Assembly (NCBI GenBank): GCA_021464245.1
Contig: JADCRB010000056.1
Location: 1,419,738-1,483,737 of the forward strand
Source: Carallia brachiata
Lineage: Eukaryota; Streptophyta; Magnoliopsida; Malpighiales; Rhizophoraceae
DNA: 64,000 bases
Direction of reading: 5' to 3'
The notes under the pieces were generated by a model. That model was not told the origin of the DNA. It saw only the letters and a program-made list of their open reading frames with translations, and did no database searches. Of the stretch, positions 7,866 to 63,999 are shown piece after piece. Within the stretch, counting starts at the first letter, position 1. The number at the start of each line of letters is the position of its first letter. The translations under genes and the position numbers were made by a program.

Positions 7866-8569
7866 CTACCATTGCTGCTCTAAGTTGTTGGAACCTATCC
7901 TTGGCAATGCTTTTGTGAAAATGTCAGCTACTTGTTCCTCGGACCTGCAAATAACTAGTTGTACTTCTCCATCTTCCATCGCCTCTCTAATAAAGTGATG
8001 TTTTAATGCTCGGTGTCTAGTTCTACTATGAAAAACAGGATTGTTGGCTATAGCAATTGTTGATTTGTTATCACAATAAAGCACAGTAGGCTCTTCTTGT
8101 TTCTCTTCAATGTCTTCTAAAATTCTTCACAACCAAATGGCTTGAGAAGTAGCCATTCCAGCTGGAACATATTTAGCTTCTGTAGATGATTGAGCTACTG
8201 ATTGTTGCTTCTTGAACACCACGAAAATACTCCTGAACCCAAAGAAAATACATACCTAGACGTGCTCTTCATATCATCAACACAACCTCCCCAACCACTA
8301 TCCCAAAATCCAACCAACTTCAACTCAGAAATTCTTTCATACTTAAGGCCATAATTCAACGTTCCATGAACATCTCGGAATACCCTTTTTGCTATTCCCA
8401 AATTTATGTGGCTTGCAGAGTGCATAAATCTTGAAAGTAACTTTGTTGTATGCATCAAATCTGGCCTCGTAGCTGTGAGATATATCAAATTTCCAACCAA
8501 GCTTTGATACAAAGTTGCATCCACCTTGTTTCCACCATTTTCTTTCATCATCTTCTCATTGACAATCAA
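7866..8569 (-). pseudogene. Copia RNase H and end of RT (frameshifted)
   Basis: The piece at 8195-8569 carries the end-of-RT/connection region (VDATLYQSLVGNLIYLTATRPDL) and the start of RNase H (GFWDSGWGGCVDDMKSTSRYVF). The piece at 7866-8084 carries the C-terminal half (LYCDNKSTIAIANNP, FIREAMEDGEVQL, DIFTKALP). The break near 8085-8194 separates them. It is a defective copy of the domain that removes template RNA. Confidence 0.9.
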
Positions 8570-8657
8570 AGGTGTTTCAATAGAATTACACCCTTCTATT
8601 CTGAATTTTTTGAGGATTTTCTCTACAAATCTGCTCTAGCAAATGACCACAGCATTT

Positions 8658-9592
8658 TCACCTTTGATAAACTTCAATTCTATGAAAATAATGTAGGAGC
8701 CCCATATCATTCATTGTATATCTTCTCATTTCACTCTTGAACTCTTCAATAAGCTTCTCATTGTTTCCAGTTATTACCAAATCATCAACATACAAAAAAG
8801 AAACAAGTATGCCAGCAACTCCATTGTTTTTAACATATAAAGTTGGTTCCCTTCTACTCCTTTCAACCACCCTTTCTCCAGAAAATAGCCATCAATCTAA
8901 CTATACCAGGCTCTAAGTGCTTGTTTCAACCTGTACAAAGCCTTTTTCAGCTTGTATACTTTATGTTCTTCACCGTTGACAATAAACCCTTGAGTTTGCT
9001 TAACATAAACATCCTCCATTAATTCTCTATTCAAAAATGGAAATTTAACATCAAGTTGGTGTAACAACCAATCTTTATGAGCTGTTACTACAATAATGGC
9101 TCTAACAGAATCCAAGCGAGCTACCAGAGCGAATGTTTCATCATAATCAATTCCGGGTTGTTGTGAGTAGCCTTTAGCTACTAATATCGCTTTATATCTT
9201 TGTATGGAGCCATCAAGTTTATGCTTCACCTTGTAAATCCATTTTAAACCAATCACTTCTTTGTCTTGTGGGTGGTCAACCAGCTGCCATGTATTATTTT
9301 TCTCAATAGCGTCAATTTCTTCTTGCATAGCTTTTCTCCATGATCCATCTTTCACAACTTCTTCAAAATTTTCTAGTTCCATCATCCAAAAATTGCATCT
9401 GGCATACACATCGCTCAAACTCCTCATTTTCTTAGGTGTTGAGCTAGGTGAACTACTTAAAGAAGATGGCAAGTTAGCTCCTATATCATAATTTGGCTCT
9501 TCACTATCACTTTTTTCTTCTGGAATTGGATTTTGTTGAATAACATCCATTGGGACAAACTTTTTTCCTACTTGGCTTTTTCCCAATTCCAA
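8658..9592 (-). pseudogene. Copia reverse transcriptase (broken)
   Basis: The frame at 8897-9592 shows the RT N-terminal part: WRKAMQEEIDAIEKNNTW, GLKWIYKVKHKLDGS, AKGYSQQPGIDYDETF and the QLDVKFPFLN segment, where copia usually has DVKTAFLNG. The frame at 8658-8870 carries the catalytic palm motif YVDDLVITG. A shift and stop near 8880 separate the two, so no full RT can be made. Confidence 0.95.
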
Positions 9593-10259
9593 ATTTTTTT
9601 CTCATCAAATACAACATCACAACTCACAATTATTTTGTTTGTTTTTAAATTGAACAACTTGTATCCCTTCAACTTAGCCAACAAAAATACACTTCTCACT
9701 TGCTTCATCAAGCTTGTGCCTCTTCTCTTTTGGAATATGAACATAGCACACACATCCAAATACTCTCAAGTGCTTAACTGCTGGCTTCCTACCACTCCAA
9801 GCTTCAAATGGTGTCTCATTCTTTAATGCTTTAGTTGGACTTTTATTTATCAAGTAAATAGATGTATACACAGCTTCAGTCCAAAATCTTCTATGTAAAC
9901 CCACTTTAAACAAGATGGATTTTGCCATTTCCATCACCATTTGATTTTTTCTCTCTGATACTCCATTTTGTTGTGGAGTATAACCAACAGTAAGCTGTCT
10001 TTGCACTCCTTCATCTTCACAAAACTTATTCATTTGAAGTGTACTCCTTTCCTCGATCACTCCTTAATATTTTTATGCTACAACCACTTTGCTTTTCAAC
10101 AAGACTCTTAAATTTCTTAAAAATGCTGAAAACTTCATATTTTTGTCTCATAAAATAAACCCATGTCATGCGACTATAATCTTCTATGAACAAAATAAAG
10201 TACTTGTTTTGAGAGTGTGATGGGGTATTCATTGGACCGCAAACATTGGTACGCACCAA
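9568..10259 (-). pseudogene. Copia integrase (broken)
   Basis: Two overlapping frames carry the integrase core: TNVCGPMNTPSHSQNKYFILFIEDYSR and LRSDRGKEYTS in 10026-10259, then GYTPQQNGVSERKNQ and the C-terminal KHLRVFGC...KCIFVG region in 9674-10060. Acidic catalytic positions of the core are recognisable, but the frame break near 10040 inactivates it. A third piece (9568-9759) runs on into the linker before RT. Confidence 0.9.
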
Positions 10260-10356
10260 TTCAAGTAACCCCTTTGCTCTCCATGCGACTCCTTTAGGAA
10301 ATGGTTGCTGGTGTTGTTTTCCTTAGTACACAACCACCACAAACTTCATTTTTCTC

Positions 10357-10872
10357 TTATATGCTCGGCAAACCATGCACTAAATTCTGTTGCTGCAATA
10401 ATTTCAGGCTTCTAAAATTCAAGTGCCCAAATCTGTGATGCCACAACCAACAATCATTAATAAGACTAGCTTTCATAGCCACTTCTTTTGAGTACTTGAA
10501 CCTTAAAGGAAAGCTCCACTGCAACCCCATTTTTATGTCAACCACCTTCTCATTTCTTTGATCAAGAATCACACAACCAAGGTCCTTGAACAATACAGAA
10601 TAGCTATGCTCCAACAATTGTCCAAGGCTAAGTAAGCTTTGGTCTAAGCTTGGTACATATAGAACATCATTTATCACTTTTGTTCCTCTTTTAATTGCAA
10701 CTCCAATCCTCCCCTTACCTGTCACTTCCATAGTTGCACCATTTCCAAGCCTCACTTTTGAATTGAAAGTTTCATCCATATCTAAGAATATTTCCTTACA
10801 CGGTATCATATGGTTGTTACAACCACTATCCCAATACCATAGATCGATCCTTGCTCTCCTCCATGACTTCAT
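10357..10872 (-). pseudogene. Copia gag-pre-integrase / protease region
   Basis: The frame contains WYWDSGCNNHM, corresponding to the protease start where copia usually has a DSG(A/C) catalytic motif, followed by GAT and VLYVPSLDQSLLSLGQL. It ends in the gag-pre-integrase zinc-binding part (CWLWHHRFGHLNFRSL). The aspartate of DSG is present. The piece is cut off from both gag and integrase by stops. Confidence 0.85.
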
Positions 10873-10922
10873 GAAAAAAACATAAAGTAGATTTCCTTCA
10901 CAATCTTTATCCTCTGTGAAAT

Positions 10923-11636
10923 TTACTTGGTGGTCATTCTTAAATTTGCAATCTTTTTGAATGTGGCCAAATTTCTTACAATGATGACATTGGGGTTTTC
11001 CTTCAAACCAACAGTTTTTGCAATGTGGCTAGTCTTACTACAAATATGACACCTTCTCGTGCAATCACCTTCAACTGGTCTACTTTCATTGTTACTTCGA
11101 CCTCTTCCTCTTGTGCCTTGGCCTCTACCTCTTCCACATCTACCACCTCTAGGTGACCAAATCCTCTGGTTTTCATTTATTGAGCGTCCTTTGTCTTGAT
11201 TTTTAACATCAAGAGAGAGCTTAGATTGGAACACACTCTCAATTGGCGTTTCAGAGCGTCACGACAATCTTTGTTCAAATGATTTCGAGTAACCCATTAA
11301 CTCTTGAATACTCATTTCAGCAGTGTCTTTAGTTTGCTTTATTACAACCACCATTGCATCAAATTTTTCAATCAAACTATTCACAATTTTCTCAACAATT
11401 TTCTTATCATCAATCTTCTCACCACATGTTTTCATTTGATTCACCACTTGTATGACTCGACCAAAGAATTCATCAATTGATTCATTCTCCTTCATTTTCA
11501 AATTCTCATAATCTCTCCTTAGATTTTGAAGTTTGACAGCCTGTACCTTATCATCTCCATGAAATTCCTGCTTCAATATCCCATGCTTATTTGGCTTTGG
11601 TTGATCGCATGATTCTAGGGAAAAGAGCATCTGCAA
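10923..11636 (-). pseudogene. Copia gag (broken)
   Basis: The 11259-11636 frame matches the UBN2-type gag core (LQNLRRDYENLKMKENESI, FFGRVIQVVNQMKTCGE, IVEKIVNSL). The 10923-11234 frame continues with a basic GRGRGQGTRGRGR tract and a zinc-knuckle-like CHICSKTSHIAKTVG, in which the last Cys is missing. Gag forms the particle that packages element RNA. The N-terminus upstream to the PBS is further decayed. Confidence 0.85.
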
Positions 11637-15340: not shown

Positions 15341-16134
15341 TGTAAACATATTTTATTATTAAAAAAAAAAAAAGGGTTTTGGCAGCCACCAACCTTGAAT
15401 TTAAGATTGGTATCTGCCGCCAATTTTGAATTCAAGATTGGTGGCTCAACAGCCCTTTTTGAAAGGTTTATAAAAAGGCCCTCCAGCCTCCAGTTCAAAA
15501 CAGATTCAGCAAATCTGTAAATAGAAAAATTCAAGTAATTTGAGAGAAAAAGAAAATTTTGAAAATCTAAAAAGAAAAATTTCTCCTTTTTCTATTTGCT
15601 TTTACTCTGCAGTATACTCTCCTAACTCCTTTTTAAGAGATATTTCAGGGGTAAACCCCAAAAAATTTGCTGTTTCCATTTCCTAAATTATTTTTAGGTT
15701 ATATTCTCGAATCGCTTTAAATCTGAATTTATGAGAATATAGATCTAAAAATATCAAATTACTACAAATTCAGCCGGGATCAGTCTCATACGGCCCTTAG
15801 CAAAATCCAGGTAGCTTATCGGAAATAAATCCATTCGCCCTCGGTGAAATTAAACCAGATTGGCTCAGTTCAGGTCTCTGCGGTTCTTAACCGTAGTCTA
15901 AATGTCCAAACAGATCCAGTTTCAGTCTACCCTGTTCAAAATAAAGTTGTGAAAATTATTTCTATCAAGATCAAGCTCGTGCAGCTCTTGATGGAGTCAA
16001 AAATGGAACAGTAATCGGTGGATCTACGGAGATCGACCCCACGTAAATTTTCTTTTATTTTATATTTTTATTGTAATTTATTTTTTTTGTATTTTTGAGT
16101 CTAACTGTTTTAAATTCGAAATTTACCCGTTACA
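15341..16134 (+). repeat. 5' LTR of the gypsy element
   Basis: It begins tgtaaa and ends gttaca. A TATA box (tttataaaaagg) lies at 15467-15478. The part from about 15700 to the end matches the right LTR base for base over long blocks, such as gcggttcttaaccgtagtc and ggatctacggagatcgaccc. The first 350 bp do not resemble the right LTR. The U3 holds an inverted repeat gccaccaaccttgaatt ... aattcaagattggtggc (about 15384-15446), which can form a hairpin just upstream of the TATA box. Confidence 0.85.
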
Positions 16135-16140
16135 AATTTT

Positions 16141-16157
16141 TGGCACGCTCGGTGGGA
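16141..16157 (+). other. Probable primer binding site of the gypsy element
   Basis: tggcacgctcggtggga lies a few bases inside the left LTR, starting with TGG as tRNA primers require. I do not assign the tRNA with certainty. Confidence 0.6.
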
Positions 16158-16179
16158 TCTTTTCACCTCCCATCTCTTG

Positions 16180-16445: not shown

Positions 16446-18205
16446 ATGGCATCAAAGAGAAGTACAGTCACCGGTACCAATAAGAAGGCAACGGCTCTAT
16501 TACCGGCATTAACTACCCTACCTAGGTACACAGTTCCAGAAATCTGGGACGGACACAATTTCTTGCCGTCCAAACCCGACAAAATATTGAAACGGAGAGT
16601 ACACAGCTCGCACAACAGGATCTCTCCCCTGACTCTCTTGCCGTATGGAGGAGTCGATCACCCACCCCTATCGAAGTCGGGGGCAACACGACGAAGCTCG
16701 TTCAGTAGAATCCAACTCATTCTGTAGAGATCCACACAGAGGAATCAGAAGAGTTCTCTCCCCCAGTCTTTCGCGGAGTCTCATCTGTTGCCGTCATGAT
16801 GACCAACACAACCAGTACAGAAGAAAGGATTTCAGAATTGGAAACAAAATTTTGCAGCTGATCAGAGTTGTAGAGGAAAAAGATCAACAGATCGCCGCTC
16901 TCAAAGGAAAAGTCCAGATCCAAATTGATCCTGAAATCCGCGATGAGCAATCATATCCACCCGGTTTCACTCCAGAAGCCACACCAGCCGACGTCTTCAC
17001 TGTAAAAAGCGACCAGGTAGTTCTACACAGCTGCCACCCTCAAATTATATAACTTCGCTATTTGTTCAACAATTGCAGGAAATGATAACTAATACAATCT
17101 GCAACAAGCTACATCCTTCCAAGGATCACAGATGTACGTTAAACTGTACACTAGACGGATCGAAAGTCTCAACATGCCTCTAGGCTACCAGCCGCCCAAA
17201 TTTCAACAATTTGACGGACGAGACAATCCCAAACAGCACATCGCCCACTTCGTTGAAACCTGCAACAACGCAAGGACTTATGGAGATCTCTTGGTGAAGC
17301 AGTTTGTTCGTTCACTCAGGGAGACCGCTTTCACCTGGTTCATAAATCTTGAACCAGAATCGATCGACAGTTGGGAACAGCTACAAAGAGAGTTTCTCAA
17401 TAGATTTTTCAGCACTCGAAGGACGGTAAGTATGGTGGAGCTTGCCAGCACCAAACAAAGGAAATGAGAGCTCGTTGTCGAATACATCAACAGATGGTGT
17501 GCCCTCAGCTTGGACTGCAAAGATCGTCTGACAGAAACTTCTGCCGTGGAGATGTGCATCCAGGGAATGTATTGGGAGCTGTTATACATCCTGCAGGGTA
17601 TCAAACCCCGAACCTTCGAAGAACTGGCGACCCGCGCACATGATATGAAGATAAGCATCCAGACTTCCGGGGGTACGGTTCCCATCCAGTCGGATCAGCA
17701 AGGAGGCAGAAGGGAGATAAAAAAACCCAACAGTTTCGGAAAAGGAAAAGAAGTGATGACTGTTGAAGCCGCACCAGTAAAAGTGGGAGCTAAAACCAAG
17801 GTAAATCCTCCGACTCAAATAACTCAGCCAAAACAACAGGAAAGGCGGAAGGTGACATTGCGAGAGTTGGAGCAGAAGCAGTGTCCATTCCCCGACTCAG
17901 ACGTTCCCGACATCCTTGACCAACTCCTGGAGGCGAAGCTGATCGAATTCCCAAAGTGCAAGCGGCCCAATGAAAAGGATCGAGTAAGCGATCCAAGATT
18001 CTGTAAATATCATCGCATAGTAAGTCATCCAACTGAGAAGTGTTTCGTCCTGAAGGAGCTAATCATGAAGCTCAAGGGTCAGAATAAAATCATTCTGGAC
18101 CAGGAAGGCGTAACCTCGGCAAACCAAACCACCATCACTTCAAATCCATCAGAAGAGCGGCACACCATAAGGAGGAGCCACTCGGTGACAAAAAGTCAAC
18201 AATAG
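16446..18205 (+). pseudogene. Gypsy gag (broken)
   Basis: An ATG at 16446 opens the first frame, followed by shifted pieces at 16645-17052, 17132-17467 and 17510-18205. The 17132 piece carries the retrotransposon gag core (FDGRDNPKQHIAHFVETCNNA, TAFTWFINLEPESIDSWEQLQ, FLNRFFSTRR). The last piece has a CPFPDSDVPDILDQLLEAKLI segment and a Cys/His cluster (CKYHRIVSHPTEKC) usual for Tat gags in place of a classic zinc knuckle. A stop at 17465-17467 separates them. Confidence 0.85.
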
Positions 18206-19659: not shown

Positions 19660-20640
19660 AAGTGCTTTACTTACTGTAGAAGAAGAGCAAGAATATGTTC
19701 AGATATTAAGTCAATACAGGGACGTGTTCGCATGGAGTTACAAAGAAATGCCTGGACTTGACCCAAAAATTGTGGTGCATCGTCTAGCAGTAAAGAAGGT
19801 GTTCGTTCTGTCAAGCAGCCACAACGACGGTTCCGCCCGGAACTCATTCCACAAATCGAGGAGGAGGTTAACAAGCTGATCAATGCTGGCTTCATCCGAG
19901 AGGTCACCTACCCAACGTGGATTGCCAACATAGTCCTGGTAAGAAAGAAGAATGGACAGTTAAGGGTATGTGTTGATTTTCGAGATCTTAACAGGGCCTG
20001 TCCGAAAGATGACTTTCCGTTGCCCATAACGGAGATCACAGTCGATGTAACAACGGGTCACGAAGCATTGTCCTTCATGGATGGTTCTTCAGGCTATAAC
20101 GAAATCAGGATGGCACCAGAAGACGAGGAGTTGACAGCATTCCGCACCCAAAAGGTATATACTGCTACAAAGTTATCGTTTGGATTAAAAAATGCTGGCC
20201 ACTTATCAACGTGCTATGCAAAAAATTTTTGATGAAATGCTGCACAAGATTGTAGAATGTTATGTTGATGACTTAGTTGTAAAGACTAAGAAGCGCAAAG
20301 ACCACCTCGAGGATCTCAAGACTTCGCAGGCATCAGCTTAAAATGAATCCTCTCAAGTGTGCATTTGGTGTCGCATCATGAAAGTTTCTTGGGTTCGTGG
20401 TGCGACATCGTGGAATCGAAGTTGATCAGTCAAAGGTTGTGGCAATTCAAAAGATGTCTGAACCTAAAAACCTGCACGAGCTGCGAAGTTTACAAGGAAA
20501 GCTGGCCTACATTCGCTGTTTTATTCCAACTTAGCTGGGAGATGTCAACCTTTCCATCGTCTAATGAAGAAGGATGTCAACTTCGAGATGGACGAAGCTT
20601 GCAGCAAAGTCTTTGAGAGCATAAAGAAGTACCTTTCCAA
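19660..20640 (+). pseudogene. Gypsy reverse transcriptase (broken)
   Basis: Conserved blocks appear in order across shifting frames: INAGFIREVTYPTWIANIVLV, KKNGQLRVCVDFRDLNRACPKDDFPLP, a palm block MDGSSGYNEIRMAPED (18 residues downstream of ITEITVDV), FGLKNAG, and the catalytic YVDDLVVK near 20262. The order and motifs are those of gypsy RT. Several shifts between 20155 and 20640 destroy the frame. Confidence 0.9.
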
Positions 20641-20689
20641 TCCACCAGTCGTAGGTGCTCCAATTTAAGGAAAGTCATTGATTCTCTAC

Positions 20690-21060
20690 ATTGCAGCGCA
20701 GGAAAGATCTTTGGGAGCCCTGCTTGCACAGGAAAATGGGTAGGGAAAGAAGTTGCCCTGTACTACTTGAGCAGAACACTAAACGGTCCGGAGCTGAACT
20801 ATTCGCCCATTGAAAAGACATGTCTAGCACTGTTCTTTGCCATTGATAAGCTGAGGCACTACATGCAAGCCCACACGGTACATCTTATTGCCAGAGCTGA
20901 TGCTGTCAAATATATCTTATCTAGACCGATCTTGTCAGGACGACTTGCCAAGTGAGCAGTAATCCTACAGAGCTACGACATTGTCTACGTGCCTCAAAAA
21001 GCAGTCAAGGGACAAGCTCTAGCAAACTTCCTTGCAGATCACCCTGTCCCGTTCGATTGG
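20690..21060 (+). pseudogene. Gypsy RNase H (first domain)
   Basis: The frame at 20767-20955 reads SRTLNGPELNYSPIEKTCLALFFAI and HYMQAHTVHLIARADAVKYI, the RNase H directly fused to RT in all gypsy elements. A TGA at about 20953 and missing upstream sequence break it. Confidence 0.85.
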
Positions 21061-21114: not shown

Positions 21115-21558
21115 CCATGGACGATGTTCTTCGATGGTGCAGCAAAACGTGATGGTGCTGGTGCCGACATAGTGTTTGTCACTCCTCAACGACAAATACT
21201 ACCATATGCTATCATCCTCGGTGAGTTATGTTCAAATAATGTTGCCGAATACCAGGCTTTGATCATTGGTCTTCAAATGGCTGTCGATATGAAGATTCCA
21301 ACTATAGAAGTCCATGGAGATTCCCAGCTCGTCATCAACCAACTTACAGGGTTGTATGACGTGAAGAAAGAGGACCTTGCGCCTTACAATCAACGTGCTC
21401 GACAGCTAATGGATGAATTTGAAAGCATCACCTTAGAGCATGTGCCTCGACGAGAAAACACTCAGGCAGACGCGTTGGCTAATCTGGCCACTTCTCTTGC
21501 AAAGTCAGAAATCCAGGCTACAGTTATTGTCGTATGCCAGAAATGGATAGTGCCATAG
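21115..21558 (+). pseudogene. Second, cellular-type RNase H of the Tat lineage
   Basis: The 144-residue frame 21124-21558 contains FFDGAAKRDGAG (first catalytic Asp), NNVAEYQALIIGLQMA (catalytic Glu), VHGDSQLVINQLTG (second Asp) and RRENTQADALANLA (last Asp). This is the plant/archaeal RNase HI form that Tat elements carry in addition to their own RNase H. Unlike most of pol here, this domain is open end to end with all four acidic residues present. Confidence 0.9.
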
Positions 21559-21731
21559 AAGGATGATGAAGAAACTACAGCAGCCAACGTTGTATCTGTA
21601 CGTCTCACGAGGACGAAGATTGGCGCCAACCAATCATTGACTACCTACAACATGGGAAGCTGCCCGAAAATCGTCGTCATAAGACAGAAATTCAACGACG
21701 AGCTCCCCGCTTCATATGTCTCAAAGATGCT

Positions 21732-22860
21732 TTGTATCGAAGATCTTTTGATGGAGTTTTACTTTGCTGCCTAGGCAATGAAGAGGCAAAACAAGCTCTC
21801 GCTGAAGCGCATTCTGGTGTTTGTAGCGGACATCAATCAGGGCCTAAGTTGCACTTTCAGCTTAGAAGGATGGGATACCACTGGCCGACCATGGTACGTG
21901 ATTCCATTGAGTTTGCTAAAACTTGTCAAGCTTGTCAATTTTATGCGAATTACATACATCAATTACCAGAGCCACTGGATCCAACTGTCTCGTCCTAAAC
22001 CCTTTGAAGCTTGGGGTCTTGACTTAGTGGGGCCCTTGTCAAAGTCATCCCTAAGTCACCTGTATATCCTCGCAGCAACAGACTATTTCTCAAAATGGGT
22101 CGAAACTATTCCACTTAGAGAAGTAAAGAAGGAGCATGTTGCCAATTTCATCCGGACTCAGCTGATCTATTGCTATAAAGTCCCTCGATTCATCATCACT
22201 GATAATGGTAAGCAGTTCTACAACAGCTTGATCGACAAGCTTTGCGAGAAGTTCAAGTTCAAGCAGTACAAGTCATCCATGTACAATGCCCCGGCAAATG
22301 GCTTGGCTGAAGCATTCAATAAGACCTTATGCAACATATTGCGGAAGGTAGTCTCTAAATCCAAAAGAGATTGGCATGACAGAATTTCAGAGGCATTATG
22401 GGCGTATCGTACAACTTACCGGACTCCAACACAGGCAAACGCCATACTCACTTGTCTACGGTGTCGAAGCAATACTGCCGTTGGAAACACAGATTCCATC
22501 TCTGCGCATGACTGTTCTGGAAGGACTCACACAGAGGAGAATGCTCGCTTACGTCTGGATGAGTTAGAAGCCCTTATGAAAGGAGACTCGAAGTACAATA
22601 GCAACTCGAATGCTACCAATCCCGGCTCACCAACACGTTCAACCGTAGGGTCCGCCCTCGATCTTTTCAAATTGGAGACCTTGTTCTTGCAGTACAATGA
22701 CCCATCAATATGAAGCACCGGTCTGGTGACAAGCTTACTTCCAAATGGGACGGGCCATACCTAGTGCATGAGGCCTATACTCACTACGCTTACATGTTGT
22801 CAGACCAAGAAGGCGTCTGAATTGGTCCGATCAATGGTAAATTTCTGAAACAGTATTATG
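21732..22860 (+). pseudogene. Gypsy integrase (frameshifted)
   Basis: The zinc-binding HHCC part (HSGVCSGHQSGPKLHFQLRR, CQACQFYAN) is in frame 21732-21998. The catalytic core (WGLDLVGPL, AATDYFSKWVE, FIITDNGKQFYNSLID, NGLAEAFNKTL) is in frame 21778-22713. The D,D,35E acidic residues are visible. The C-terminal WDGPYLV segment continues near 22748 in another frame. A shift between the HHCC and core parts inactivates it. Confidence 0.9.
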
Positions 22861-22869
22861 CGTAAATAT

Positions 22870-23200: not shown

Positions 23201-23248
23201 AATACCAACTCTTGGCCCGCATGAGTATAAACTGTGAACGGCCCAAAA

Positions 23249-23256
23249 ATATAAAA
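23249..23256 (+). promoter_or_regulatory. TATA-like box in front of the captured homeobox frame
   Basis: atataaaa lies 89 bp upstream of the ATG at 23345, a distance suited to a plant TATA box with a short leader. It may be a promoter remnant carried with the captured gene; this is inference from position and sequence only. Confidence 0.4.
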
Positions 23257-23344
23257 GCGACGGAGGGTTTGAGTCTGAAACCCAGCATCAGTCTCAACCG
23301 ATCTTCACCACATACCAGACCTTTACTCCTCTGCCACACAAAAG

Positions 23345-23971
23345 ATGGAACCAGTTGCAGAATCTCAAGACAAGGGAGAAGAGAAGTTACCCCGCACAAG
23401 ATGGCAACCAACCATGGCACAACTACAAATTTTGGAGGAAGTCTTCCACAACAATGGAGGTATTATGCCTAATGCATATCAGATTTACCAACTTGTCTCA
23501 CGATTGCGCCCGCTCGGGGCAATCGAAGGAAAAAATGTGTTTTATTGGTTCCAGAATCGGAGAAGTAGGAAGAAACCAGCATTAAGAGCTACTTTTTCCA
23601 AAGAACAGTCTGCCGTTCCGATAGTAAATTCCACCAGTATAGCTTCGCCCTCAAATGAAGCAGGTCCCAGTTCTATCACTGCAATGGTCTCTTCAGGCTA
23701 TAACGATCAAAGCCGTAGCCTGTGGGAGCATGCGTACTGGTCCTAGTGGTCTTACGGAGTCGGTCAAGGGTTCATTCCTCCTAAGTACTTAAGTTCATGA
23801 GGGACTCTTCTAGCAGAAGGAAGTCATTCTGGCGAAACTTTGCCCCTCTTCCCAGAATATTCCAGCAGCCTCAACCAGCCGGGAGGCTCTAGCGACGTCA
23901 ACATCATCGGCCCACCAGACGAGGCCAAGCTTGACTTGGAGCTGCGCTTTGGGCCCCGCCAGGACGGCTGA
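23345..23971 (+). pseudogene. Captured WUSCHEL-related homeobox (WOX) gene inside the retrotransposon
   Basis: The ATG at 23345 has a good context (A at -3, G at +4). The first 133 codons are open and contain a homeodomain at about residues 16-80. It starts RTRWQPT, has the enlarged loops of the WOX family, and ends IEGKNVFYWFQNRRSRKK; W68, F69, Q70 and N71 of the recognition helix are present. IEGKNVFYWFQN is WUS-clade style, while NRRSR is nearer WOX11/12. After TAG (23744) and a TGA (23798) the same frame continues with the WUS box ETLPLFP (23834-23854) and an EAR-type motif LDLELRFG (23930-23953), ending at TGA 23969. WOX proteins control stem cells and act as nuclear repressors through these two motifs. 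Here the first protein would lack both. Sense orientation between integrase and 3' LTR shows capture by the element. No intron is visible. Confidence 0.85.
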
Positions 23972-23982
23972 TAAGATAAGGT

Positions 23983-24087
23983 GCAACGACTTCTGCAACA
24001 CACGGCAATGACTTTTGTAGAACACAGTAACAATTTCTGCAGCATACGGCAACGACCTCTGCAACACATGGTAACGACTTTCGTAAC
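23983..24087 (+). repeat. 22-bp minisatellite, about five units
   Basis: Units of the form caacgacttctgcaacacacgg follow each other with point changes. A second, shorter array with the same unit lies at 24597-24680 in the duplicate copy. The minus-strand open frames over these arrays are by-products. Confidence 0.7.
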
Positions 24088-24335
24088 CCGCGTCAGCCGC
24101 TGCCTCTTTTGTCTCTTATGAGAGAAAGGGACGTGGAGGACTCTACTCGATTCTACGTACCTCCTTTTTTATTTTTATTTTTTTAAAAACAAAATCTTTA
24201 CGTTATATATATCCTGCATGTCCGAGTTATAATATTCACCCCCTCAGCTCTTCTTNACCAGTACAACTTCGCCGTCAAATGAGCAGGTCCGAGTTCTACC
24301 ACTGCAATAGTCTCTCAGGCTTAACATCAAAGCCG

Positions 24336-24576
24336 TAGCCCATGGGAGCATGCACGCTGGTCCTGGTGGTCTTACGGAGTCAGCCAAGGGTTCATCCCTC
24401 CTAGGTACTTAAGTCTAGGAGGAATTTTTCTAGCAGAAAGGAGTCATTCCGGCGAAACTTTGCCTCTCTTTCCAGAATATTCCGGCAGCATCAACCAGCC
24501 GGAAAGCGACGTCAACATCATCGGCCCACCAGACGAGGTCGAGCTTGACTTGGAGCTGCGCCTCGGGCCCCGCTAG
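24336..24576 (+). pseudogene. Second copy of the captured WOX C-terminal region
   Basis: An open frame runs from about 24336 to TAG 24574. It reads PWEHARWSWWSYGVSQGF, then ETLPLFPEY (WUS box, near 24457) and DLELRLG (EAR motif, near 24547). At the two positions where the first copy has stops this copy has sense codons. It has no homeodomain and no ATG in good context, so alone it would not be a DNA-binding protein. It helps show what the captured gene looked like before decay. Confidence 0.75.
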
Positions 24577-24850
24577 GACGGCCGACAAGATAAGGTGCAA
24601 CGACTTTGGCAGCACACGGTAACGACTTCTGCAGCACACGGCAACGACTTCTGCACACACGGTAACGACTTTCGTGACACGCGTCAGCCGCTGCCTCTTT
24701 TGTCTCTTATGCAGGAAAGGACGTGGAGGACCCTACTCGATTCTGCGTACCTTTTTTGACTTTTCAAAAAAAAAAATCTTTATCGTATGTATATATCTTG
24801 CATTCCCGAGTTGTAATACTCACCCCTCAGCTCTTCTTTCTCAAAAGAAA

Positions 24851-25012
24851 ATGGCTAGTCTCTGCACTTGTCTCAGGAAGTTCTTCGATCAAGAAGTTGG
24901 AGGCGCACGAGCTAAGAAAAGAAGGAGTAGTCTTCTCGAGGGATCCCTAAAAGCCCTCGAAACTCAGTCTCCAACGCCATCGGTGTCATGGAGTTCCAAC
25001 TACTCTCCTTAG
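24851..25012 (+). CDS. Unrecognised 53-residue open frame in the retrotransposon 3' region
   Basis: ATG at 24851 with A at -3 and G at +4, directly after the second duplicate copy. It encodes a small, basic, Ser-rich peptide starting MASLCTCLRKFFDQEVGG with a KKRR cluster. I do not recognise it. It may be chance, or the start of another captured or element-specific gene. The following 480 bp up to the polypurine tract contain the partially repeated phrase ggagttccaactactctcctta (near 24990 and 25083) and no clear gene. Confidence 0.25.
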   Translation: MASLCTCLRKFFDQEVGGARAKKRRSSLLEGSLKALETQSPTPSVSWSSNYSP

Positions 25013-25497
25013 TTCACATCTACCACAGAGGGATGAGAAGCTGCAATTATCCTAATCTTTCTTTGGATGCAGCGACGTACAGGGAAGTTCCAACTACTCT
25101 CCTTACGTCGAAGCAGACTTGGAAATCATCACTACAGTCATCTCTGTGAGCCGGTCTTGAAGTTCCAAGGTCCTGGGCCTTCCTCTTGAGGAGGTTCAAG
25201 TTCTTTGCCTACCGGATCATCCTCACCAGAGCTCTGGAACTTTAAGACATATAAAAAATCCTTTGCGGGCTATGGAAGCTCGAATGCACCTGGAGCCAGA
25301 AGGTCAATTTTTATATTGGCTGGGCTGCTAACTTTCTCAAGATCGTATCGGGTTCCTATTGCGATCCAACAACAGCAGGCATGGTCAAAGATAGAAGACT
25401 CCAAGATTCAATGTTCATCAGGACGTTTCCAAGTTTCAAACTGGACTTCAAGACTCGGTGCGGATCATTTCTGTAAAAATCTTTCTTACCGACCTTG

Positions 25498-25508
25498 AAG
25501 TGGGGGCA
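25498..25508 (+). other. Polypurine tract of the gypsy element
   Basis: aagtgggggca directly precedes the right LTR (tgtaaaag at 25511), in the standard place for plus-strand priming. Confidence 0.75.
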
Positions 25509-25510
25509 TT

Positions 25511-25626
25511 TGTAAAAGACAAAAAAAAAGAAAAATCAAAGTTAGGCAGATGAAGAAAAAAAAAAAGGAGGCAATCTAGAAGGTCAACTTCTAGAAAAAG
25601 AAAAAATCCAAAGTTAGGCACCGGCG

Positions 25627-25659
<33 letters not shown>

Positions 25660-26381
25660 TCAGCAAAAGGTTGGTGGCACAGTGCCACCCAAAAAGCCTA
25701 TAAATAGGCAGAACCAATGGCCATTTGCCAAGAGGAAAAAAAAGACAAAAAAAAACAAAGGACGGGACAGCAACAATTGCAAATTGGAATTGCAAATCCA
25801 ATTTGCAATTGTCCCAAAGAGAAAACATTCTCTTCCATACGTTTTATATTTTGGGCATATTCACTTTAGACGCCATTAAGTGCGATCTTCTAAAGTAAAG
25901 GCCTAGAATATTTATCATACACATTTTCAAAAATATTTTGGGTATACACTCTCCAGTCGCCTCAAATCAGAATCTGAGAGAGAAAATATCCAAAATATCA
26001 AAATACTGCAAATCCGGCTGGGATTAAGCCTCATACGTCCCTCAGCAAAATCCAGGCAGCTCATCCGAGAACAAATCCCTTCGACCCTCGGTGAAATTAA
26101 GTCAGATCGGTTCAAATCAGGTCTCTGCGGTTCTTAACCGTAGTCAAAACATCTAAATCAGATCCGGTTTCAGTCTACCCAGTTCAAGAAAAAGCTGTGG
26201 AATTTATTTCTGTCAAGATCAAGCTCGTGCAGCCTTTGACGGAGTCAAAAAAGGAACATTAATCGGAGGATCTACGGAGATCGACCCCACGTAAATTTTC
26301 TTTTATTTTTAAATTTTTATTTGTAATTTATTTTTGTATTTTCGAGTTTAATTGTTTTAGGCTTGAAATTTACGCTTTACA
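25511..26381 (+). repeat. 3' LTR of the gypsy element
   Basis: It begins tgtaaaagac and ends gctttaca. TATA box tataaata at 25699-25706, just after a near-perfect palindrome ggtggcacagtgccacc (25673-25689). From about 25900 it matches the left LTR, but its U3 is different and rich in A-runs. A perfect 15-bp stem with an 8-nt loop lies at 25774-25811, downstream of the TATA box and therefore in the RNA leader. Confidence 0.85.
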
Positions 26382-29224: not shown

Positions 29225-29730
29225 GATATGCATTTTCTTAGTTATAAACATTTATACTTTTTTTACATATAAGTTTTAAACTTTTTTGAAATTTTATTTA
29301 AATTCTAAACTTTTGGTTTTCTTTCTAAATCAGTACATTCGTTAACTAAAAGTAGTCAATCTGTTAAAAAATAATTTTGACCTTACAAAAATTATTTGAA
29401 AAAAAGTTAAATACATTAATTAAATATTTTTTTCATCAAAAAATATGCACATTACGTATTTAATTTACGTATTTTTTGATTAAAATAATATTTAATGTGC
29501 ATATATATTGATGAAAAAAATATTCAATTCGTGTATTTGACTTTTTTTTAATAATTTTCATTAAGTCAAACTCATTTATTAACGGATTGATTACTTTTCG
29601 TAAAACAAAAGGACTGATTTAATAAGAAATCGAAAGATTTATAATTCAAATAAAATTTTAAAAAAATTTAAAATTTATGTGTAAAAAATATATATATATA
29701 TAAAATTTAGGACTGAAAAAATGCATATTC
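29225..29730. mobile_element. MITE-like foldback element, copy 1 (about 500 bp)
   Basis: The two ends are inverted: gatatgcattttcttagt at the start and gactgaaaaaatgcatattc at the end. The interior is also roughly palindromic (tttaaatacattaattaaatattttt against its complement). The same interior words, such as aaaagtagtcaatc, aacggattgattactttt and ggactgattt, occur in the copy at 38542-39043. AT-rich, no coding. Confidence 0.65.
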
Positions 29731-34774: not shown

Positions 34775-35577
34775 TCATCTAAGCATTTGCAACGAACCCA
34801 CCATGTTTGCAGAGGGCTGTGCGCAATTCTTCAACAAAGAAGAGTAAGCAACGTTAGGCATTGTCAGCCCAGAGAACCCAAAGCCAGTCATAGGCCTATT
34901 AGCCCCAGCTTGTTCCAAAGTTTGCACTTGTTTCTTCAAGAACTTCAAGTAATGTATGGCCTCGTCCAACATTGAAGCTGTGTCCATTTTGGTCCCTCCT
35001 GGCACTAGTCTCTGCAGAATCCTTATCCTCTCGCTTATTCTTTCCCTCCTGTGCCTCGCAGCCACGCTTTGAGGGTCCTTAGATATCTTCACGTTTCTTC
35101 TCTTTGGGGGCCTTATCGATTCCGGGTCTATGTGGATTGGTTGCATTGCCGCTATCCGAAAGATCATCTCTCTGATTGCTGCCGTGGAGTTTTTCTTGTC
35201 TACAGAACATAATAACGAGTTTGTTGTTGACAAATTTGGAGGCGCATATTTGAATTTGCTCTCCGCAAGGTTGGATTGGACAGGTGTTGTAACAAGTTCT
35301 TGGATTGGTGTACCGATGAATGGCATGGCGGGGAGCGGCCCGTTTATCAACCCAAGTGAAGATTGATGTGGATGGTTGTGATGGATGGCATATTTGTGGG
35401 ATTTCCACTGGAGAATTGGATATCTTGCAATGCAGAAGAAGAAGAAGAAGCAGCAGTAGATGTGTTGTGGAATGGCTCATAGAAATCAGCTGGAAGCTTA
35501 TCTATCTGCATAATCATTGTCATCATGTCCATCTGTTCCTCTCCAGTTGGTGATGATTTCATCATGTCAACATCCAT
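34775..35577 (-). CDS. HEC: HECATE-type bHLH transcription factor (one frame break)
   Basis: The gene reads on the minus strand as two overlapping frames. The upstream frame starts MDVDMMKSS at 35577 (an earlier in-frame ATG is at 35616); it is acidic and Met-rich, as HECATE N-termini are, and runs to a stop at 35347-35349. The downstream frame (to 34775) holds [39 protein letters not shown] and the bHLH domain ([23 protein letters not shown], then a loop with [26 protein letters not shown]), about residues 90-147 counted from its own ATG (35350). This nearly matches the HEC1/2/3 family, which acts in the nucleus with other bHLH proteins in gynoecium and meristem development. HEC genes are normally intronless, as here. 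A one-base shift lies between about 35350 and 35391: a real lesion or a base-calling error. Confidence 0.85.
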
Positions 35578-44120: not shown

Positions 44121-44558
44121 ATGGCAACATCACCATTCCAGCGCTTTTCACTTCTTCTCTTCTCTCTCGTTTTCTTCATCGTCGCTAATACTCGAGGAAT
44201 CGAAGCCCAGGTCGAGGACACGGCTGCCGGTTTGAAGATTTTCTCCGACGCGCTGGAATGGCCGCTCCCTATGGCTATGTACGGCGGTTTCGACGGTGGC
44301 GATGATGATGCGGATGACATTGATGATTCTGATGGTGGGTTGTTAGATTTGGATGGAGATGAAGGCGAGAAGGGTCGCCGATCTTTGTACTGGCGACGAT
44401 TTCATTACTATATCTCGTACGGAGCACTGTCGGCTAACAGGATTCCTTGCCCGCCGCGTTCCGGGAGATCGTATTATACCCACAATTGCTACGGGACTCA
44501 CACTCCGGTGAACCCCTATACCAGAGGCTGCTCAATGATTACTCGTTGCCGGCGATGA
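44121..44558 (+). CDS. RALF: RALF signalling peptide precursor (RALF4/RALF19-like)
   Basis: A 145-residue prepropeptide. Residues 1-29 form a hydrophobic secretion signal ending near GIEA-Q. A propeptide with a strongly acidic run (GDDDADDIDDSDGG, about 59-72) follows, then the RRSL processing site (86-89) used by the site-1 protease. The mature peptide holds the receptor-binding YISY (97-100) and four Cys at 110, 123, 137 and 143, ending RCRR. YYISYGALSANRIPCPPRSG is typical of Arabidopsis RALF4 and RALF19, pollen-tube peptides acting outside the cell on FERONIA-like kinases with LRX proteins. The family is certain; the pollen role is inferred from similarity. The upstream ATG at 43972 is in another frame. 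Single exon, as is usual for the family. Confidence 0.95.
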   Translation: MATSPFQRFSLLLFSLVFFIVANTRGIEAQVEDTAAGLKIFSDALEWPLPMAMYGGFDGGDDDADDIDDSDGGLLDLDGDEGEKGRRSLYWRRFHYYISYGALSANRIPCPPRSGRSYYTHNCYGTHTPVNPYTRGCSMITRCRR

Positions 44559-57444: not shown

Positions 57445-57628
57445 TCTCCCCCTTTTGGGCAACTAATTAGCTGCGTTGTGTTCTGTCTTTTTTTCCGTGC
57501 CTTAATTTCACACTTTCCTTTCCTCCAAAGAAAGAGGAAAACCAAACCAAAAACCAAACTAAAAAAACCCCCTCAAGAAGGCACAGAGTTTGACAGCAAG
57601 AAGTTTCCTCATCTGGGTCTTGGCTACG

Positions 57629-58678
57629 ATGGAGTGGGTTCGAGGAGATTCAATCGGTTGCGGCAGCTCCTCGACGGTCAGTATAGCAATACCAAAGAAA
57701 GGCTTCGATCCTTGTATTTCAACAATAGCTGTGAAATCCTGCAGTAGTTTCGAATCTTCTTTGCTTGAGAACGAGAAGGAGATTTTAAATCAACTTGGAG
57801 AATGCGATCAAATAATCCGGTGTTTGGGAGACGGTCGTAGCGTGGAAAACGGCGTCGGATTGTATAACTTGGTATTGGAGTACGCAGCAGGGGGAAGTTT
57901 GGCTCATCAGGTCAAGAAGTCCGGCGGTGGCGGCTTGGGGGAATCCGATGTTAAGAGGTACACGAGATCGGTGCTTAAGGGTCTTTGCCACATCCACTCA
58001 AAAGGGTTTGCTCACTGCGATATAAAGCTTCAAAATTTGTTGCTTTTTGGTGACGGTGAATTGAAGATTGCCGACTTCGGATTGGCAAAGAAAACAGGGG
58101 AAAAACAGGGGAGCGTAGAAATTCGGGGAACTCCTCTGAACATAGCGCCGGAATCTGTTAACGAAAACGAGTATGATTCGCCGTGCGATGTTTGGGCTCT
58201 TGGGTGTGCGGTGGTTGAGATGGTTACCGGAAAACCGGCGTGGGATTGCAAGCCCGGGACCAACATAGCCGCCTTGCTAATCCGAATTGGAGTAGGAGAC
58301 CAACTGCCGGCGATCCCACAAGGGTTGTCCGAAGAAGGGAAGGATTTTCTTACAAAGTGCTTTGTCAAGGACCCTGCAAAAAGATGGACGGCTGAGATGC
58401 TCTTGGCCCATCCATTTGTCTCCGGGAACGACGATACTGTTACAATGAAGCACAGTAAAGAATTGTCATCGTCTCCGAGATGTCCTTTTGATTTCCCAGA
58501 CTGTGGTTTAACTCAATCGTCGGCGAAATCTCAGTTCTGGTCTGATGCTGAAGTGGAGTCAAGTTTTGATTCGTTGTTTACCAGTTCTTCTAGTTTGCCG
58601 GCGGACAGAATCCGGCGACTGACGAGTGATCGGAATTGCGATTGGTCGAATTCCGGGATTTGGGTCACTGTCCGGTGA
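57629..58678 (+). CDS. MAPKKK: MAP kinase kinase kinase of the MAPKKK17/18 (MEKK) type
   Basis: A 349-residue single-exon protein kinase. I use the ATG at 57629 (MEWVRG...) because the family begins just before the glycine loop; the in-frame ATG at 57590 would add 13 residues. The catalytic domain starts almost at once: glycine loop G10-C-G12 to V17, ATP lysine K36 (IAVK), catalytic loop H129-C-D131-I-K133 with N136, DFG 149-151, GTPLNIAPE (168-176), DVWALGC (187-193), and the subdomain XI Arg (KRW). The tail after about residue 265 is Ser-rich and low in complexity. HCD in place of HRD marks a non-RD kinase and is usual in this group. Such kinases start MAPK cascades in stress, chiefly abscisic acid, signalling in cytosol and nucleus. 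The specific pathway is inferred from similarity. Confidence 0.93.
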   Translation: MEWVRGDSIGCGSSSTVSIAIPKKGFDPCISTIAVKSCSSFESSLLENEKEILNQLGECDQIIRCLGDGRSVENGVGLYNLVLEYAAGGSLAHQVKKSGGGGLGESDVKRYTRSVLKGLCHIHSKGFAHCDIKLQNLLLFGDGELKIADFGLAKKTGEKQGSVEIRGTPLNIAPESVNENEYDSPCDVWALGCAVVEMVTGKPAWDCKPGTNIAALLIRIGVGDQLPAIPQGLSEEGKDFLTKCFVKDPAKRWTAEMLLAHPFVSGNDDTVTMKHSKELSSSPRCPFDFPDCGLTQSSAKSQFWSDAEVESSFDSLFTSSSSLPADRIRRLTSDRNCDWSNSGIWVTVR

Positions 58679-62739: not shown

Positions 62740-63999
62740 TTAGTTAGTTATGGGAGAGAGGCTTGTGGCCACTATTGGGCTCCTAACCACATATTTGCCT
62801 CCATCATGCACCCAATATAAAGAGCCATGGACCTTCACTTCTTTCAACAATCTCGGTCCCTCCAAAGTAAGCTTGTAGCTCAACTTCTCATGTTTACTCT
62901 TGAATACTAGCTTCTGGGGCTCCACACTCGCCTTTATGCCATTCATGACTGTCAACTTTGCAGTGTAACTTGAAACTCCTTCTCCAACATTAGTTAAAGT
63001 CCTTCGGAATATGTGCACAACCTTTGCATCAGAATTTGAGTTGTCGACAACACCATTAAAATAAGCAATGAAAGACGGGTAATTGAGATCTAAAGTCCTG
63101 TTGTTTGCACAGCCGTGATTGGACCTTGTGATGATTTGGATTTGTTTAGCAGTGTAGTTCATTCCACAAAGAAGCTTTATGTAGTCCTCTACCGTTGCAT
63201 CATAGATGAGCCCCGGATCAATCGCCTTGTTGGGATTTATGTGGCCAGCTCCCATTTCAAGAGGGCTGGCAGGGATATCAGAGAATGCAGAATCTTTAAT
63301 GGGATTTCGATCGTTATCCAGTGGATTTGCTGTGGTCATGAGAGCAGACCTAATGGCTGCAGGGCTCCAATCAGGGTGCAAACTTTTTACTAGTGCAGCC
63401 ACTCCTGCCACATGAGGGGTGGCCATTGAAGTGCCTGAAATTATATTGAATTTGCTGAACAATGGATGTTCTGAATACTCACCAACTGAACTAAATGGAG
63501 ACCATGATGCTAGGACTAATGAGCCAGGGGCCAGGAGGTCTGGCTTTTGGACATAGGGGCAGCTTGAGAATGGCCCCCTTGAGCTTAATCCATATACTCT
63601 TGGTGCTGGCTTTGTGCCAATTATTGTCTTCCGAAATTGCATACTTCCTCGTGGATCACTGCTCTTCTTTATGTAGTCTATGACGATTTCACCGTCATGT
63701 AGACCCATGAATGCTGCAGGTAACGAAATTCTGCTGTAGAATTGTGACAGAGATATATTTGTAATGAAGACAGCTCCTAACACTCTTGCGGACTCCGCAT
63801 AATCAGCTTGAGTACTGACGCCTAGATCGTCCTTGCATACTATGATTTTGTGCTTAAGCTTCTTCATTTCCTCCACGCTTAAACACCGACCCAGGAACAC
63901 CAGGGGCCTTTGCTTTAGAGAAGAATTTCCCACGTACATTGATGTGAAATTGATTTTAATCCCATTGCCCAAAGTTAAAACTCCACCAAATTCACGGTC
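62740..63999 (-). CDS. Subtilisin-like serine protease, C-terminal part (runs off the window)
   Basis: The open frame continues past the right edge. The codon at 63972 is TTG inside the phrase DREFGGVLTLGNG, so it is not the start. The visible 420 residues cover the end of the catalytic domain with the inserted PA domain (about KIIVCKDDLGV to SDPRGSMQF), then SSRGP...KPDLLAPG, and the catalytic serine in GTSMATPHVAGVAAL (Ser codon 63427-63429). HPDWSPAAIRSALMTTA follows, then the C-terminal fibronectin-III-like domain (LNYPSF, FRRTLTNVGEG). Catalytic Asp and His lie outside the window. Plant subtilases of the SBT1 type are secreted and process cell-wall proteins and peptides; many are intronless, as this part is. 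The stop is at 62740-62742. Confidence 0.93.
   Translation of the reverse strand, partial: DREFGGVLTLGNGIKINFTSMYVGNSSLKQRPLVFLGRCLSVEEMKKLKHKIIVCKDDLGVSTQADYAESARVLGAVFITNISLSQFYSRISLPAAFMGLHDGEIVIDYIKKSSDPRGSMQFRKTIIGTKPAPRVYGLSSRGPFSSCPYVQKPDLLAPGSLVLASWSPFSSVGEYSEHPLFSKFNIISGTSMATPHVAGVAALVKSLHPDWSPAAIRSALMTTANPLDNDRNPIKDSAFSDIPASPLEMGAGHINPNKAIDPGLIYDATVEDYIKLLCGMNYTAKQIQIITRSNHGCANNRTLDLNYPSFIAYFNGVVDNSNSDAKVVHIFRRTLTNVGEGVSSYTAKLTVMNGIKASVEPQKLVFKSKHEKLSYKLTLEGPRLLKEVKVHGSLYWVHDGGKYVVRSPIVATSLSPITN

Follow-up and report, generated by a model that had tools for sequence, protein, structure and literature searches.

A WUSCHEL-type homeobox gene as a family feature of Tat-like gypsy retrotransposons in Carallia brachiata

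Gene transduction by LTR elements has been described for Bs1 of maize and Rider of tomato, which in the published account carry gene parts or single transductions (PMC13317346). A survey of 121 genomes, which names a dual RNase H as a feature of Tat elements, reports 15 non-canonical domains and describes an orchid element, Gypsy_Pa_2799, with an ALKBH-like m6A demethylase as well as gypsy elements of Citrus and Populus with a LONELY GUY-type (YgdH) domain; in its main text, figures and supplements aside, no homeodomain is named and the strings “homeo” and “wusch” are absent (PMC9289625). The top-ranked papers of our literature search (subscription journals, figures and supplements aside) included none on a homeobox in an LTR element of plants. 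Extra frames have reportedly been surveyed by Steinbauerova et al. in 2011. In animals, retroviruses with oncogenes have captured growth regulators as spliced copies. WUSCHEL maintains plant stem cells, and plant germ cells derive from those of the shoot. The Medicago homologue HEADLESS, a protein of 302 aa encoded with two introns, is described as recruiting TPL through its WUS-box and EAR-like motif (PMC6305195), and LTR retrotransposons are reported to make up 26 of the 54 transposon families that are raised in vegetative shoot stem cells of Arabidopsis (PMC7560203).

The locus described here lies in a stretch of 64,000 nucleotides from Carallia brachiata (hereafter the window), where a WUSCHEL-related homeobox (WOX) gene sits in a gypsy element. 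As in Tat/Ogre elements with extra frames such as Gypsy_Pa_2799, as far as that element has been described, there is a gypsy domain order, a second RNase H, and an extra gene kept over many copies; however, in place of an RNA demethylase the cargo is a transcription factor of the WUS type behind a TATA block of its own. The LONELY GUY-type gypsy elements, according to the same source, likewise hold a gene captured from the cytokinin/meristem system, yet theirs encodes an enzyme rather than a transcription factor and goes back to a separate capture event. With Bs1 and Rider the element shares the presence of host sequence on an LTR element, whereas here, in contrast to the transductions reported for those two, a whole gene is fixed in a large family. 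The likeness to oncogene-bearing animal retroviruses is that of an apparently captured, spliced growth regulator, here in a plant host, with no infection, and known from sequence.

An earlier note, made from the letters of the window alone, had pointed to a frame of 133 codons for a WOX-type homeodomain, and this frame is present: it starts with an ATG, runs from 23345 to 23746 on the plus strand, and ends with TAG. The homeodomain (residues 17-77, 23393-23575) was recognized by PF00046 with an E-value of 1.2e-12 and 47.8 bits (cut-off 22.9). A sequence search against solved structures gave two matches, the AtWUS homeodomain (6ry3, E 3.7e-18, ungapped) and STENOFOLIA (E 4.5e-16, one gap). The single-sequence fold is predicted to hold the three homeodomain helices (pLDDT ~90), and all 11 Foldseek matches of this predicted fold at E <= 0.001 were homeodomains of WUS or STENOFOLIA. 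The frame thus encodes a WOX homeodomain, well above chance level. As an account of the gene, the 133 codons cover only the homeodomain part, as the same frame continues (23747-23971) past stops at 23744 and 23798 to a final stop at 23969, with TLPLFP of the WUS-box (ETLPLFP) at 23837-23854 and an EAR-like LDLEL at 23930-23944. Both motifs were searched by their generally known definitions, TLxLFP and LxLxL. Since TLxLFP arose in only 7 of 100,000 residue shuffles, the WUS-box exceeds chance, while LxLxL arose in 3,990 of 100,000, so that the EAR-like motif alone is within chance; when the whole window was translated in six frames, TLxLFP was confined to the two WOX 3' halves described below. 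The copy in the window is itself broken by the two premature stops, and the remainder of the gene is open in several other copies. An openness of the frame amid a gag-pol riddled with stops, which had also been claimed, is therefore weak here, the more so as the integrase frame (312 codons) and a frame after the gag match (245 codons) are open over longer stretches. Upstream, a promoter-like block (23215-23344) contains the TATA-like box that had been proposed, TATAAAAG at 23250-23257, and downstream a 3' untranslated part with 22-base tandem repeats (23972-24255) is common to all 19 other copies considered below.

The surrounding domains place the gene in a Tat-like element. The left-hand element opens with a 5' LTR (15341-16134, TGTAAAC...GTTACA, most of which matches 3' LTRs found in many other copies) and a primer-binding-site-like stretch TTTTTGGCACGCTCGGTGGGAT (16137-16158), the core of which, TTTTTGGCAC, recurs in nine of the 12 other copies whose 5' stretches were fetched, those of the remaining three (L058-L060) ending within the LTR. 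In Ogre elements, the primer-binding site matches tRNA-Arg. Further along the plus strand follow a gag piece (17132-17467; PF03732, E 1.8e-7), a reverse transcriptase piece (19762-20229; PF00078, E 2.9e-9), its RNase H (20617-20952; PF17917, E 5.6e-14), a second, Tat-like RNase H of the RVT_3 type (21124-21558; PF13456, E 5.3e-24), the integrase zinc-binding domain (21570-21995; PF17921, E 4.3e-9), and the integrase core (21778-22713; PF00665, E 6.8e-10), whose frame is broken near its end and whose C-terminus lies near 22864. An integrase after the reverse transcriptase and its RNase H, and a second RNase H between these and the integrase, are Tat-type traits. The WOX gene comes next in sense orientation, ahead of the polypurine tract and the 3' LTR, and the same order of domains and gene is found in other copies; both the proposed orientation and the proposed capture by a Tat-like gypsy element are thereby borne out.

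The window element is composite: two family members meet at the window's sole N (24256). The stretch 23633-24255 is repeated at 24257-24838 with the junction exactly at this N, and the repeat represents the 3' half of another WOX copy, distinct from the first (WUS-box 24457-24474, LDLEL 24544-24558), the two halves differing by 64 substitutions over 580 compared sites. This second copy, on the plus strand like the rest, belongs to a right-hand element that continues with a family-specific non-coding block and the polypurine tract GAAGTGGGGGCA (24840-25510, tract at 25497-25508), found in all 19 other copies and with at least 40 genome matches, and with a 3' LTR of a different U3 subtype (25511-26381, TGTAAAA...TTTACA). 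In the other 19 copies, the 3' untranslated part and the block follow the WOX gene once; their matches are split or shortened in L010 and L011, yet lie in one place. We read the junction as having arisen when two family members were joined in assembly, though it may instead be a real recombinant. The two LTRs, whose starts were taken as 15340 and 25512 in LTR comparison and copy matching, each one base off, are 84.6% alike in R-U5 and just 63% in U3 (z 1.7 and 3.6 against shuffles), and no common 5-mer that could mark a target duplication was found at the LTR flanks of the window element. The U3 subtypes (15341-15676 and 25511-25921) are hardly alignable and are joined to one common R-U5, as after template switching.

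The WOX gene is a family feature of this retrotransposon. The host genome (337.5 Mb, 164 contigs) was searched with the homeodomain, and the best 150 of 1,348 candidates were scored, so that all counts are lower bounds; at least 101 of these 150 are element-type homeoboxes (manual count; 183-186 bases, 47.8-54.7 bits); 48 distinct ones were read wholly or partly. Twenty loci, chosen for convenience as lying on the plus strand of their contig, were fetched at 10 kb and comprised 19 element copies and one host WOX9-like gene (L014). In all 19 copies the WOX gene is followed by the 3' untranslated part, the family block, and a 3' LTR (only the last 130 LTR bases match in L024); 18 have integrase upstream, and 17 the complete set of reverse transcriptase, RNase H, second RNase H, and integrase. 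The two without the full set are L018, which holds 4,092 N, and L024, which shows none in range; apart from a single N in L027, the other loci contain none. An independent probe, the non-coding block 24840-25500, had its best 40 of 1,321 candidates scored. Upstream stretches were fetched for 20 of the 39 matches besides the window, and all 20 copies (L094 being the same copy as L065) carry the homeobox, 19 with an ATG at the expected place. The homeobox is therefore no unrelated insertion lacking in other family members. LTR pairs with TG...CA ends and 5-base target duplications were seen in other copies, the duplications being readable in six of them (exact in four, one base off by eye in two). 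All 12 LTR pairs fetched from the 19 copies differ by 0.45-7.2% (0.0045-0.0715 substitutions/site; compared over 177-446 bases only in L058-L060), which indicates that WOX-bearing elements moved recently. An identical score of 1071 bits for many matches to the block 24840-25500 suggests a recent burst of nearly identical copies. Searches for relatives gave no match among plasmids, none in viral contigs for WOX, integrase, or the WOX alignment, and none in prokaryote genome contigs. WOX gene counts in plant genomes may include such retrotransposon copies.

The relationship to host WOX genes was assessed within the same genome, where names were assigned by reading of the homeodomains. The host set includes at least two genes each of WUS, WOX1, WOX4, and WOX13, as well as WOX2, WOX3, WOX5, and WOX9. 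The paired genes (L061, L062, L030-L033, L006, L029) look as after a whole-genome duplication. Host WUS has an MEP/MDP start and an ETLPLFPIH...SLEL end, and its homeodomain and this end lie in separate open stretches that we read as exons, whereas the element gene has no intron and thus differs from an ordinary host gene. WUSCHEL proteins (AtWUS, HEADLESS, and those of host L061 and L062) and the element share a homeodomain that aligns ungapped, ETLPLFP, and an LxLxL-type motif near the end; the element gene is distinguished by being intronless and mobile, by its length of ~203-209 codons versus the 302 aa of HEADLESS, by 47-50% homeodomain identity, and by NRRSR in place of NHKAR. Among the homeodomains compared, only WUS aligns ungapped to the element, and a homeodomain longer by one residue is a WUS trait. 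By plain identity, the closest host homeodomain is WOX3 (53%, 34/64, two gaps), compared with 47-48% for WUS (32/66) and 40-48% for the other host genes. In a tree with the host genes, the element sequences group together in a single clade (99/96; stem length 1.38), which agrees with the divergent lineage of its own that the earlier note had suspected; this clade falls among modern-clade genes (86/88, below the starred level and on a long branch) and has no firm sister. A grouping of WUS with the element is absent from the best tree but is not rejected (p-AU 0.40), and neither is one of WOX9 with the element (0.125). Judged from these sequences, the element gene is a deep lineage, and its parentage from WUS is not fixed. 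A kinship with WOX11/12, once suggested by NRRSR, is not supported: identity to the only WOX11/12 sequences compared is 28/64, and the WUS-box and the ungapped WUS alignment oppose it.

We consider it probable that a Tat-like family captured a spliced copy of a WUSCHEL-type gene and keeps it as a WUS-like repressor gene that serves the element. Long ago, the Ty3/gypsy ancestor would have taken up a spliced WUSCHEL-type mRNA copy, which would now be the third gene, behind the integrase. Its protein would be made from its own promoter, enter the nucleus, bind DNA through a homeodomain with changed neighbours in the recognition helix (RRS for HKA), and repress targets by recruiting a TOPLESS-type co-repressor. 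Such repression might tune the expression of the element itself; alternatively, cells in which the element is active might be pushed towards a stem-cell and hence germ-line fate, which would aid its inheritance. The strongest form of the latter, a working WUSCHEL mimic that holds or makes stem-cell fate, or disturbs host WUS, and thereby favours passage into the germ line, is a tentative possibility. A mobile element may thus have taken over a stem-cell switch, and with such a family one could test whether transposons of plants manipulate the fate of stem cells to promote their own transmission.

A different reading is that a WUS copy was caught once by a successful element and is carried along as functionless, decaying cargo, which we regard as rather unlikely. 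It has to explain why the frame, the WUS-box, and the EAR motif persist in several copies despite a homeodomain identity of less than 50% to host WUS. From the anchored start, at least 203 aa can be read in 13 of the 19 copies; nine have both repressor motifs in frame, six of these with ATG at the anchored start, where ATG is found in 15 and an MEP start in 13 of the 19, and the WUS-box occurs in 11, broken-frame ones counted. Some copies are thus readable at 47-48% homeodomain identity to host WUS, whereas a neutral simulation to 50% identity gave a mean of 5.5 stops per 203 codons and only 4 of 1,000 runs free of stops, indels ignored. Between the element and host WUS homeodomains, pN (0.34) is far below a saturated pS (0.86), a low value that is partly due to the host branch. 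Constraint on the WOX gene since its presumed capture is supported by these comparisons.

Among recent copies, constraint on the homeodomain and the promoter block is only suggestive. For the homeodomain, 20 rows gave 16N:14S private (P 0.04) and 3N:6S shared changes (P 0.018), and 39 rows gave 12N:13S (P 0.012) and 6N:9S (P 0.009), respectively, both samples being picked by homeodomain score and hence biased by choice. The block-picked sample, with 4N:2S private and 0N:2S shared, has too few changes and is too uniform. In recent copies, the linker and the C-terminal part cannot be told from neutral sequence (shared-change omega 0.86 and 0.66 in the first sample, 0.69-1.23 in later ones), as expected of decaying cargo; a Ka/Ks comparison of element-borne copies, which the earlier note had proposed, gives a signal for the homeodomain in the homeodomain-picked samples only and a neutral-like result for the rest. 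The window's two WOX 3' halves alone gave no significant result (omega 0.45, P 0.075; codon-position differences 12/10/13). Pooled pairwise omegas (homeodomain 0.17, C-terminal part 0.64) were set aside because they ignore transition bias and stem from a homeodomain-picked sample. As for the pol controls, the second RNase H (shared 3N:9S, P 0.001) and the integrase (private 46N:36S, P 0.005) are constrained, and the RNase H shows no constraint in private or shared changes.

The integrity of the gene was compared as well. Eight of 20 copies (19 loci and the window) have a WOX gene without frameshift or stop, compared with 4/18 for the second RNase H and 1/18 each for integrase and RNase H, domains of differing length; in further samples, the clean copies number 10 of 20 when picked by homeodomain and just 6 of 20 when picked independently of it, the latter in favour of functionless cargo. 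This last set has 47 frameshifting indels and one stop in 3,992 codons, next to a rate of 1.03 per 100 codons at which the second RNase H is frameshifted in the 19-locus sample, so that WOX is there not clearly better kept than pol. Several indels seem to sit at homopolymers, and assembly error may inflate the indel counts. Among one-base changes, no stop is common to two copies, which speaks against functionless cargo. Four copies (L084, L085, L087, and L097) have a disturbed codon at one homeodomain position, either a shared lesion or an assembly error.

Against mere cargo also stands the promoter block. TATA at -94 to -97 before the WOX ATG is conserved in all 19 other copies, and the 130 bases before the ATG have the lowest mean pairwise difference (2.2%) of nine stretches compared. 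The values are 3.6% from the ATG to the homeodomain end (third positions of the homeodomain 6.1%, first 2.1%, second 2.3%), 6.9% in the linker, 6.1% in the C-terminal part, 7.8% in the 3' untranslated part, 6.7 and 11.6% in the family block, and 12 and 23% in low-complexity stretches upstream of the promoter block. Neither the two LTRs of the window nor the sequence ahead of the ATG are convincingly enriched for WUS-type binding sites (lowest P among 15 tests 0.038), a result that fits the cargo reading.

The remaining explanations fare worse than a gene serving the element. That some copies have become additional WUS-like regulators in the service of the plant, the rest being debris, could account for the several intact frames and is nonetheless improbable: intact copies such as L010, L020, and L028 sit in elements with recent LTR pairs, and among the 19 loci read, a minority of all copies, no intact one stands without an element LTR. 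A main effect through small RNAs matching host WOX genes rather than through the protein is very improbable; many similar copies could feed siRNA production, but the element homeodomain is only 40-53% identical to the host ones compared, and at such identity, with synonymous sites saturated relative to host WUS, extended perfect matches are unlikely. That an ordinary host WOX pseudogene merely lies amid retrotransposon fragments is hardly credible and is refuted for the family, given the 17 of 19 other loci that show domains and gene in this order over a single 10 kb (one N in L027, none in the rest of these), the LTR pairs and target duplications of other copies, and the 20 of 20 block-picked copies with a homeobox; it holds only for the join in the window, whose copy straddles the sole N between two LTR subtypes with no target duplication found there.

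Elsewhere in the window, a broken copia-type element lies at 8195-11636 on the minus strand (RVT_2, E 3.5e-44; SH3-like domain, E 3.5e-19), and an imperfect inverted repeat at 29382-29565 has 79-base arms that are 81% complementary and separated by 26 bases. Ordinary host genes in the window include a bHLH gene (34775-35350, minus strand), RALF (44121-44558, plus strand), a protein kinase (57590-58678, plus strand), and a subtilase (62740-63972, minus strand).
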